A DNA stretch of 64,000 nt from assembly GCA_032768795.1 (NCBI GenBank), contig CP136490.1:4588001-4652000 (forward strand), written 5' to 3'. Below the pieces are notes generated by a model. It was not told the origin of the DNA. It made no database searches and saw only the letters and a list, made by a program, of their open reading frames with translations. This DNA comes from Tremella fuciformis. Taxonomy: Eukaryota > Basidiomycota > Tremellomycetes > Tremellales > Tremellaceae. Each line of letters opens with the position of its first letter. Position 1 is the stretch's first letter. This document shows, one piece after another, positions 1-52,584 of the stretch. A program made the position numbers and the translations under genes.

Positions 1-3000
1 TAGCGAGGATTTTGTATGGTCCCCCCCATTTGATGTCGAGCTTCTTCGAGGGTCGACGAGTCTTGATGTTCTCCATCGACAGCATGACCATATCATCCAC
101 CTTCAACACTGGCGCATCCCTTCTCCTTGCATCGTAATACTTGGCGTACCGCTCATTGGCTTGCTGTATGGCTTGTTGGCAAGATCGGTGCACCTCGTCG
201 AGGGACCCAAGCTTTTCCTTGACCGACGGTATCTCCGCTCGCTCGGCGCTCTCTCTCAAGTCATCAGTCCATCGCGGCGAGTACCCAAAGTTCGCCTCGA
301 ACGGGCTCATCTTGATCGCCGAGTGCTGGGTATTGTTATAGGCGAAGGCTGCTCTCTGCAGCAGACTCGACCAATTGTCTTGTCTGTGATCGCAGAATAC
401 CCGTAGGTACTGCTCGAGGACCTGATTGACTCGCTCTGTCTGCCCGTCGGTTTGGGGATGGAAGGCTGTCGACAGGCTGATCTTGATCCCCAGGGCCCCA
501 CACAGTGCTCCCCATAGTCGACTAGTGAACTTGCTCCCTCGATCAGATACGATGGATCTTGGCAACCCATGCTGCGCCACGACATTGTCGATGATGAGGT
601 CGACGAGTCCCGCCGTTGTGAGGCGAGTCGTTGTCGGCACGAAGATAGCCCACTTCGTCAGGCGGTCTACCACGACGAGGATGGAGTTGAAGCCCTGGCT
701 GCCGGGGAGCTCCTCGATGAAGTCCATGGAAATTGCTTGCCACGGGCCTTCCGGGACTTCGAGACTCTGGAGGAGACCATGAGGGCGCTGCCTGCTTGTC
801 TTTGTCCTCTGGCAGATGGCACAACCCTGTACGTAGGCCTCAACATCGCGCCGCAGCCCCAGCCAACAGACGTCCCTCCTGAGCAACTCCAACATCTTGG
901 TGATTCCCGGATGTCCCGCTAGGATCCCCTCATGTCGATCCCTCATGGCTCGGAGCCGCCCATCGCCCTTGCCAGTGAGGTATAGCCGCCCATTGAGTCG
1001 CAGGGCCCCGCCAGGCTCTACCTTGGCTCGTGTGGGCTCGTCGAGGCCCATCCTTTGAACCAACCCAAACAGCTTGGGGAATCCCGCCGCATCAATCACC
1101 ACTCCGTTCTCCTCCTTCTTGATCCTCTCCAACTCTTCTCCAGCGTGCTCGAACTCCTCATCCTCCTCCCAGGTGCTCCGAGTACCCGTCTGCGGATCCT
1201 CTCTTGCCTCTGGATCTGGACTCGACGAGCCTCGTCGAGGCTCCTCGATGAGTGCCCGAAGCATGTACCCCAGCGACGTCTCGACCTTGCTTTCTTGGTC
1301 AAACCCAGGTAAGGCCTGCACTCGTTGCTCCTCCAGGTCCAATCCATCAGGCTTGTAGTCGGGCCTCCTCGACAGAGCGTCTGGGTAAGCCGCTTTGAGC
1401 CCGGGACGATACACGATTCGGAAGGAGAATCCTGCCAGGGCGTCGACCCATCGCGCAACCCGCCCACTCAGTTTCCTCGGCTCCATCCAATAGCTGAGGT
1501 TGTGGTGATCCGTGAGGACCGTGCAGCTTACTTGCAGAAGGAGATGTCGCTTCCGCTTGAACGCCATCACTATCGCCAGGAACTCCTTCTCTGTAGTCGT
1601 CCAGTTCAGCTCTGCCCCCGAAAACGACCCAGACTCTATGGCCACCGGGTGCTCGAGGCTCGTCGAGGGGTTAATCTGTGATATCACAAATCCCCACCCG
1701 TAGAGCGAAGCGTCGGTCTGCACGATGGTCTCGAATGCAGGGTCGAAATGGGCTAATACAGGGGGCTCGCTCATTCGCCTCTTGATCTCTTCGAAGGCTC
1801 TTGCCTGCGCGTCTCCCCAACCAAACGGGACTCCCTTCTTTGTCAGCAACACTAGGGGGAGCGCTAACTTGGCAAAGTTGGGTACGAAGCGGCGGTAATA
1901 GTTTGCCAGACCCAAGAACCGGCGTACTTCGAGGAGGTTGCTTGGTGCTGGGAAGTCGACGACGCCTTTCACGTACTCCGGATTCGCTTCCACGCCTTCT
2001 CGGGAGATGACAAAGCCCAGAAAGTCGACCTTCCTCTTCTCGAACTCGGATTTCGACGCTTTCACATACAGTCCCGCCTTCCGCAACGCCTCGAGTACCG
2101 CCTTTGTGAGGGAACGAAGCTCGTCGAGGCTCTTGGCGTGGACCAAAATGTCGTCGATGTAGATCACCACTCCCCGCCCAACGAACTCTCTGAGCACCTC
2201 GTTGAGGAAGTGCTGGAAGACTGCTGGCGCGTTCTTCAAGCCATCTCGCACTACCAGGGACTCGAACATCCCCAGAGGCGTCCTAAAGGCGGTATAGGCT
2301 TCGTGTCCTGGCGCCATGCGAAGAAGCTGGTAGGCTCCCGGTAGGTCGAACTTGGTGTACCACTCTGACTCCGCCAGATCAGCCGTGACTTGGGAAATCA
2401 ACGGCAAGGGGTACGCGTCCGACACTGTTGCCTCGTTGAGCTTCCGGTAATCGACCACCATTCGCCATTCGCCGGCAACCTTCTTAGGGACGAAAAAGCT
2501 CGGCGACCCATACGCCGCGTTCGATGGCCTGATCTTGCCCGCTGCTTGCTCTTTGGCGAGGAGCTCCCTGAGTGCTTTCATTTGATCCGGCGACAGTTGG
2601 TAAAGCGGTGCGACCCGTAGTTCTGCGCCCTCCTTCAGTCTGATCCGCAGGTCGTATTCTCTACTCGGCGGAAGCGTGTCGGCGGGTCGACGAGGGTGGA
2701 ACACATCGAGGAACTCATGGTAGTACTCCGGAACGATCCTTCGCACCGCCTGGGACTCCTCCTCTGACAGAGTGTACTCGTCAAACCCAAGATGCCCGTC
2801 CAAACGCCCCACCACTTCCTCGAGCTCGTCGGTGACAGTCCCTCGCAGCCGCTCTGCGGCGAGCCTGTTCTGCTCCCACCGATTGATCCGCAAGGGGATA
2901 TGGTTCGGGGAGCTCCTACGGGACTGCCCCGCGTGTTTTCCTCTCTCTCTTCTTGCTCTGGTAGCCAAAATGGCCAGATCACTTGAAGCAGCCTCGACGA

Positions 3001-3766
3001 CCGTCGACGAGGCCACCTTTTCTTCTCCACGGGTGACTTCCATAGCTCCCATGTCCATGACTACTCTCTTCTCTTGCATCCAGTCGTACCCTAGCACGAC
3101 GTCTGCACCTGCGAGCCGCGTAACCGCTAGCCGTTCTTCACTTGTTTCCCCAAGCGTCTCCACCGGGGCCACCACTTCGTGGGTGATTTCGCCCGCGGAT
3201 GACGGTTCGCCGTCGAACAGGAGGACATTCCTGGGTCGCTCCAACTTCTGTTGGGTCAAGCCCTGGCCTTCGGCGTAGTCCTGATCAATGAAGGTCCCGC
3301 CTGCGCCTGTATCTAACAGTATGCAAGCGGCCGTCCCGTCCACTTTTCCTGCTACGACAGCTTGATGCCTTCCCAGCCTGCAAGCCTCACCGCTCATGCA
3401 TTCCTCGGCATCACTAGCACTCTGTACAGACTCCTTCTCGGACTCCAGGTCCTCTGCTTCTTCTTCATGTTGATCTTCCTCGACGAGGGAAGCGGACCCC
3501 GTCGGTGGGTGAGTGGGCGTCGGATTAGAGGATTTGAGAGGTGAAGTCGGTTGTTCAGGAGGCGTGAGGGCGGAGAGTGTGTATGGAGCGGGGCCTCGAG
3601 TTTCTCCTTGTAGCTCGGGACCCCTCAGGCTTCCCCCTGCGGCTCCTGCTTCACGCGTTGGCCGGGGTTGAACGAGCCTGGGCAGTCGCGCGCAAGATGC
3701 CCAGCGTTTCCGCACTTGAAGCAAAGGCCCTGGCTGCCTCGCCTCTCGTGCTCGTCCGGAGTGAGC
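1..3766 (-). CDS. pol: Gypsy Pol polyprotein (protease-RT-RNase H-integrase), truncated by the window edge
   Basis: This frame opens after a stop at 3767-3769, overlaps the end of gag by about 140 nt in the -1 frame, and runs off the left edge. In order it shows an aspartic protease with LLDTGAGGTF near 3300, reverse transcriptase with YIDDILVHA near 2150 followed by DFLGFVIS, an RNase H TDAS motif near 1710, an integrase zinc finger of HHCC type (RHEG, GHPG, CAIC) around 820-940, and an integrase core with MDFIEELP, SDRGSKF and HPQTDGQTERVNQ. Near base 30 a KWGGPYKI stretch matches the GPY/F region near the integrase C terminus. There is no stop between the checked segments. Expression probably needs a -1 ribosomal frameshift from gag. 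Whether a chromodomain follows cannot be seen. Confidence 0.9.
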
Positions 3767-51483: not shown

Positions 51484-52584
51484 TTACAGGTCGGCGTCGT
51501 CCTAACGGCGTCAGCACACTGCTTTGGCACATTTCGCAGGACACTCACCTCATCGGGAAGAGGGGCGGCAGCAGCGGCGGCGAAGTCTTGCTCGATCTTC
51601 GCGCGGGTGGCGTCGTCGATGACGACTTCCGGAGGGAGAAGAGCAGGGGCGGCGACAAACTCAAGGGTGGGGTTACCAACGAGCTTCCTCGCGAGCCACA
51701 GGAACGGCTTCTCGAAGTTGTACTGCGGGTCAGACAAATCACCGCTCAGCGAAGGACCCAGCGCACGTTGGACTTTGCCGAGATCTCAAAGTATTGCAAG
51801 TTCTCTGATTCCGTCAGCTGATGCATGGGGTCCGTGCAGATCAGACGCACTCTTGCGGTGGAAGGTGACGTTGCCGGTCTTGACTTTACGCTCCTAGCAC
51901 ATCAGCTAGTCTCTGAGAGCATATGTAACGCCTAGGCGCACTTTTACGTCGACCTTGTTGCCGCACAGAACGATGGGGATGTTCTCGCACACGCGCTCCA
52001 AGTCACGGTGCCAGTTCGGCACGTTCTTGTAGGTGATGCGAGAAGTGACGTCGAACATGATGATACCGCATTGACCCTGGATGTAGTAGCCGTCTCGGAG
52101 ACCACCAAACTTCTCCTGGCCGGCCGTGTCCCAGACGTTGAAGCAGATGGTACCGAAGTTGGTGTGGAAGGTGAGTGGGTGGACCTCGACACCGAGGGTG
52201 GCTTGATGTCAGTCCGCATGCGGCGTTGGCGGTGGCGACAGTTGTCAGATCACATACCAATGTACTTCTTCTCGAATTCACCTGCAAGTCAGCGGTAAAT
52301 CACAAGGAGTGGAATAGGGTCGCGTACCAGTCAAGTGGCGCTTGACAAAGGTGGTCTGCGCACTGTCAGCTCGTGGTCAGCATAACAAATGACGGGGAGC
52401 TGACTTTGCCTGGTGGCGAGAAGGAAAGAAAGGCGTTAGCACCCAGTCCCTTGTCTTTGCCTTGCTCCTACATACCCTGAGCACGATCAGCCGGCCGCTT
52501 GCAATAGTCAGAGATGAGAGAACTCACGGTACCACCGTCGCCACACAGCACCATTTTAAAAGTCGCGGAAGGCTGCTCGGACAT
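51484..52584 (-). CDS. GSP1: Ran/Gsp1 nuclear GTPase
   Basis: The GTPase that gives direction to nuclear transport and organises the spindle. [19 protein letters not shown] is followed, after removal of three introns, by [12 protein letters not shown] and [20 protein letters not shown]. Other motifs are [32 protein letters not shown] and [20 protein letters not shown]. The C terminus is PLPDE then, after an intron, DDADL, the acidic Ran tail. Stop TAA at 51484. About nine introns for roughly 215 residues. The P loop can be made only with a one-nucleotide exon (52476) and a five-nucleotide exon (52405-52409). Confidence 0.96.
52405..52409 (-). other. Five-nucleotide exon (GCAAA) of the Ran gene
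   Basis: It lies between intron 2 (acceptor CCAG) and intron 3 (52356-52404, 49 nt; GTCAGC donor, GCTGAC branch, GCGCAG acceptor). Together with the single G before it, it supplies the Gly-Lys codons of the P loop. Confidence 0.8.
52476..52476 (-). other. Candidate single-nucleotide exon (G) of the Ran gene
   Basis: Exon 1 ends with the codon ACC at 52528. Intron 1 (52477-52527, 51 nt) has a GTGAGT donor, a GCTGAT branch and a CTCAG acceptor. The single G at 52476 is followed at once by a GTATGT donor. Intron 2 (52410-52475, 66 nt) has a GCTAAC branch and a CACCAG acceptor. Without this G the joined exons are one base short and the invariant TGK of the P loop cannot be encoded. With it the codons read ACC GGC AAA ACC. 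Confidence 0.72.

Follow-up and report, generated by a model that had tools for sequence, protein, structure and literature searches.

The window, by which we mean the whole stretch of 64,000 nt that was analysed, carries on its minus strand a Ran gene of a yeast-like fungus, which runs from 52584 to 51484 and comprises 10 exons of 57, 1, 5, 28, 24, 260, 43, 38, 174, and 18 nt, in this order. All nine introns have GT-AG ends, and splicing yields an uninterrupted product of 215 residues. Exon 1 (52528..52584) extends from the ATG to GGTGGTACC and is followed by the phase 0 intron 1 (52477..52527; 51 nt), which starts with GTGAGT, ends with CTCAG, and contains two branch motifs, CTGAC with its A at 52508 and CTGAT with its A at 52487. 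Exon 2 is a single G (52476..52476), the first base of the P-loop Gly codon. Intron 2 (52410..52475; 66 nt, phase 1) extends from GTATGT to CACCAG and has the A of a CTAAC motif at 52436. The sequence of exon 3 (52405..52409), GCAAA, completes the Gly codon and provides the Lys codon of the P-loop, so that the Gly-Lys of the GDGGTGKTT P-loop is made up of exon 2 (1 nt) and exon 3 (5 nt). Intron 3 (52356..52404; 49 nt, phase 0; GTCAGC...GCGCAG) precedes exon 4 (52328..52355), which begins with ACCACC. The remaining minus-strand exons are exon 5 (52258..52281), exon 6 (51942..52201), exon 7 (51851..51893), exon 8 (51767..51804), exon 9 (51549..51722), and exon 10 (51484..51501), the last of which contains the stop codon.

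The original prediction, made from the DNA letters alone, had proposed a single-nucleotide exon followed by a 5-nt exon at this place. Its coordinates proved exact throughout (exon 1 end at 52528, G at 52476, GCAAA at 52409-52405, ACCACC at 52355), and we found the predicted flanks of G52476 (CTCAG before, GTATGT after), the predicted intron lengths of 51 and 66 nt, and branch motifs in both introns. The gap in the reading frame on which it was built is likewise real: exon 1 joined straight to GCAAA is one base short. Only with G52476 do the exons on either side join in frame, and this base lies between an AG and a GT that belong to ordinary introns.

The spliced product combines the GDGGTGKTT P-loop with a full-length match to the solved chain of yeast Gsp1 (394.9 bits), as expected of a Ran GTPase, and scores 160.9 bits against PF00071. 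A protein search of the genome (28.1 Mb, 11 contigs) found no second Ran gene: three matches are exons of the minus-strand gene described here, and six others lie elsewhere with 30-37% identity. The 202-nt Ran region occurs there once, and a 14-base pattern for the P-loop matches at two additional places, on contigs C2 and C9. We therefore rejected a pseudogene accompanied by a functional second Ran copy, since no other copy was found in the genome. The only Ran gene found is broken unless the 1-nt and 5-nt exons are spliced in.

Ran is not alone in this genome in having tiny exons: the malate dehydrogenase gene in the window has a 3-nt exon, AAA (31397-31395, minus strand), between CTCAG and GTGAGT. 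It encodes the Lys of RDDLFKINAGI, a segment that is identical in the solved glyoxysomal enzyme 1smk. As to the assembly, contig C1 is exactly 8,650,000 bases long; so round a figure suggests that the contig was trimmed or edited.

Splice solutions and splice signals at the P-loop

A brute-force search over GT/GC-AG introns of at least 25 nt each, with up to three introns, returned the layout with a 1-nt and a 5-nt exon as its sole P-loop-restoring solution; no other canonical combination within these bounds restores the P-loop. A two-intron search to the end of exon 3, in which AT starts and AC ends were also allowed, gave the identical single solution.

We also used a gene finder without protein data, trained on the window and 20 stretches of 10 kb from the same genome (264 kb). 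It yielded 411 introns with an exon of at least 25 nt on both sides, with a median length of 45 nt. The program returned the full ten-exon Ran model including the 1-nt and 5-nt exons, and did so again, with a score of 71.3, after retraining without Ran. When 1-nt exons were forbidden, the Ran score fell to 67.1 (4.2 natural-log units lower), and the best remaining model put 19 residues into the P-loop; it was rejected. The program is too ready to call tiny exons: 36 of its 488 internal exons are at most 15 nt long, and two are 1 nt. The other 1-nt call, in stretch L034, seems in our judgement to fuse two genes. On the minus strand of stretch L022, the model at 68-3732 has consecutive exons of 13, 6, and 2 nt and may be a false prediction; presumably it resembles a disintegrin-type region.

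Compared with 408 introns of other genes, intron 1 has a donor at the 83rd percentile and an acceptor at the 81st, and intron 3 a donor at the 56th and an acceptor at the 96th. For intron 2, the acceptor reaches the 73rd percentile and the donor only the 29th; this merely average donor counts against the 1-nt reading. So does the branch distance of intron 2, whose CTAAC A lies 26 nt from the intron end (set median 8, 5-95% range 6-37). The corresponding distances in intron 1 are 31 nt (CTGAC) and 10 nt (CTGAT).

How often such a site arises by chance was estimated by dinucleotide-shuffling the 118-nt stretch 20,000 times, with the site placed at least 36 nt from both ends. AG-N-GT appeared in 11.3% of the shuffles and AG-G-GT of any strength in 5.8%, and an AG-G-GT scoring at least as high as the observed one (summed donor and acceptor/branch scores) in three of the 20,000 (0.015%).

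Ran models of related fungi

Three protein searches, taking the best 120 of 7865, 7940, and 2511 matches, provided 244 distinct proteins. The database was clustered at 90% identity, so that Cryptococcus and others may hide behind representatives. Among these best matches, 239 of the 244 contain the Walker A pattern. Of the five others, that from Vigna mungo (P0011) is missing its N-terminal part, and four come from Tremellomycetes. The public Ran models of Apiotrichum porosum (P0008), Trichosporon asahii (P0025), and Kwoniella bestiolae (P0012) are short by exactly Gly-Lys, that is, by the six bases of exons 2 and 3. In the model of Cutaneotrichosporon cavernicola (P0035), Gly-Lys is replaced and the segment reads GDGGT-SYNWIKADRAQ-TTF. 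The Naganishia (P0009) and Phaffia (P0010) models retain GK. Further insertions occur in the Kwoniella model (ASNLWPL, at the position of Ran intron 6) and in that of Cutaneotrichosporon (VPARVLTNQ).

The simplest reading is that gene prediction in these relatives joined the same outer sites, ACC to ACCACC, and missed six bases lying on one or more exons too small to be called. Because six bases keep the frame, the models would have lost Gly-Lys silently. In the three relatives, the protein models directly support both the positions of the outer introns and a tiny size for the GK exon or exons; in Cutaneotrichosporon they do so by inference. The insert SYNWIKADRAQ resembles the in-frame 3' end of both intron 3 (...RADSAQ, by eye) and intron 1 (...RPADRAQ) of our gene; it would fit an exon 4 extended into intron 3 and decides nothing. 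Across these fungi, Gly-Lys probably lies on a tiny exon or exons, a pattern that a 1+5 pair and a single 6-nt exon fit alike.

A FastTree tree of those proteins that are 195-310 residues long, with the root as written by the program, joins the Ran gene to Apiotrichum (support 0.945). This gene and the four Tremellomycete models that lack or replace Gly-Lys form one group of five (0.801), and Naganishia comes next (0.75). Apiotrichum, Trichosporon, and Cutaneotrichosporon belong to the Trichosporonales, Kwoniella to the Tremellales, Naganishia to the Filobasidiales, and Phaffia to the Cystofilobasidiales. Because Kwoniella is placed inside the Trichosporonales, against taxonomy, the tree is only a rough guide.

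A scan of viral contigs for the relatives' Ran DNA gave no match. Among GTDB genomes there was one match, L009:5001-5633, a Ran-like frame without interruption (69% identity); its contig is filed under the bacterium Endozoicomonas sp. ISHI1, and contamination or transfer may account for it.

Proposed stepwise splicing and competing explanations

We consider it very likely that the locus specifies an ordinary Ran GTPase and that two exons, a constitutive one of 1 nt and one of 5 nt, share the coding of its P-loop Gly-Lys. Judged from the sequence, the 1-nt exon is with high probability by far the best reading of the locus, and the original proposal gains support from three sides: the 1-nt plus 5-nt layout is the only canonical solution found, the gene finder retrained without Ran agrees with it, and the models of the relatives fit.

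With this arrangement, introns 1, 2, and 3 would be removed successively and not simultaneously, because a single base separates the CTCAG acceptor from the GTATGT donor and splicing factors could not occupy both sites together. Sequential splicing had been predicted before, on the grounds that a 1-nt exon is beyond the reach of exon-bridging factors; the stepwise order stands, with the one-base spacing between acceptor and donor as the simpler reason. Given the median intron length of 45 nt, recognition probably proceeds by intron and not by exon bridging. Removal of intron 1 first would place GTATGT directly behind ACC-G, a recursive-like splice site that leaves one coding base, and if introns 1 and 3 were removed first, the exons flanking intron 2 would measure 58 and 33 nt.

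Loss of only exon 2 shortens the protein to 28 residues and loss of only exon 3 to 29, by an early stop in each case; with intron 2 retained the reading stops at 21, and with intron 3 retained at 33. Intron 1 (51 nt) is a multiple of three with no in-frame stop, and its retention adds 17 residues, which is unusual for a policed intron. Skipping both tiny exons keeps the frame and loses Gly-Lys, and a P-loop without Gly-Lys should abolish nucleotide binding. That double skipping keeps the frame would explain why the relatives' models look plausible and yet lack the P-loop Gly-Lys. One could go further and suppose that the 1+5 pair is old and common to the Ran genes of Trichosporonales and Tremellales, that double skipping switches between active Ran and a P-loop-less form, and that the relatives' models partly reflect a real isoform; we regard this extension as very doubtful. 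A P-loop-less Ran without nucleotide binding might, if such a switch existed, block its partners.

Among the explanations that dispense with a 1-nt exon, one assumes an assembly error in which a G was lost next to 52410. The true sequence would then read CACCAG followed by GGCAAA, with one 118-nt intron and a 6-nt exon, and CAG-G-GTATGT would have arisen by chance. The relatives' models without Gly-Lys fit a 6-nt exon equally well, and introns of at least 110 nt make up 12% of the gene-finder set, which weakens any argument from intron length. This account nevertheless needs an error at one place together with a chance splice-site pair in the same intron, for which only three of the 20,000 shuffles were as good, and it appears unlikely to a high degree. 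Rather less probable still is a single 117-nt intron with non-canonical ends that is removed in one step. Introns of this length with GT-CA or TG-AG ends produce an mRNA that is identical letter for letter, and two other single introns, with CC-AC and CG-CC ends, produce the same peptide. Therefore, a cDNA alone is no proof of the 1-nt exon, and the junction ACC-G-GCAAA-ACC, which had been put forward as confirmation, would be insufficient by itself. Such an intron requires odd ends in a gene whose other introns are GT-AG, and it leaves the CTCAG-G-GTATGT site without explanation.

Finally, the gene could be decayed, or its main product could be P-loop-less, with the tiny exons unused. Double skipping does keep the frame, and the public models of three relatives show exactly that form. 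Against this stand the intact and conserved other exons of what is the only Ran gene found, as well as the further insertions that the Kwoniella and Cutaneotrichosporon models carry elsewhere, as annotation faults do; we find this explanation scarcely credible.

If the reading with the 1-nt exon is true, one of the most conserved eukaryotic genes contains a single-nucleotide exon at its P-loop, and nuclear transport would hinge on accurate stepwise splicing at this place. The locus would then offer a natural test of how the spliceosome copes when a single base separates acceptor and donor and a 5-nt exon adjoins them, in an organism whose introns measure ~45 nt. The three public Ran models that silently lack the nucleotide-binding Gly-Lys indicate a repeated annotation fault.

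Comparison with known tiny exons and sequential splicing

A search of open-licence PubMed Central papers found no Ran or basidiomycete nuclear single-nucleotide exon. In recursive splicing, the joined exon is immediately followed by a 5' splice site once the first step is complete (PMC6224609), as it would be at the Ran locus; unlike in that process, one coding base would be kept in Ran and is needed for the frame. [D]-type stwintrons similarly require consecutive splicing reactions, with an inner intron that splits the donor of an outer one (PMC9024468, PMC12403724). The Ran layout, which would keep a coding base instead, differs from these because nothing interrupts the GTATGT donor of intron 2 (52475-52470). 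Between mitochondrial introns, too, single-nucleotide exons have been reported (PMC12308204, PMC5436844).

In plants, a 1-nt exon has been described in Arabidopsis APC11 (PMC4674806), and the 1-nt microexons of plant APC11 and VPS55 are supported by RNA (PMC8831610), that of APC11 also by base substitution (PMC4674806). They resemble the Ran exon in being constitutive, flanked by ordinary introns, needed for the frame, and absent from reference annotations, and they are conserved in many species (PMC4674806, PMC8831610). The Ran case differs in concerning a fungus and another gene, and the plant exons were proven by RNA. Rice provides an example of adjacent microexons, of 5 and 12 nt (PMC8831610); as in Ran, two tiny exons are consecutive and the smaller one is absent from the annotation, but neither rice exon is 1 nt long.

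The original prediction referred to Arabidopsis and knew of no fungal Ran case; the kind as such is not new to fungi, as a single-nucleotide exon in Fusarium CYP621A was published in February 2026 and called the first for a fungal gene (PMC12940212). That gene encodes an ascomycete P450, and its exon has RNA support in two species and lies in a 139-nt stretch in F. graminearum (PMC12940212). In both cases, a lone G flanked by AG and GT in a nuclear gene of a fungus forms part of a Gly codon in a conserved motif, is required for the frame, and was missed by annotation (PMC12940212). In contrast to the RNA-supported Fusarium exon, the one described here is read from DNA, lies in Ran of a basidiomycete, provides the first base of its Gly codon, and is followed by a 5-nt exon. 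Single-nucleotide exons were thus already known from plants and Fusarium; what is new is that the Ran models of relatives lack or replace exactly Gly-Lys, and the case stands out for the gene concerned, for where in the protein the exon falls, for the 5-nt exon next to it, and for a fault that recurs silently in the relatives' models.
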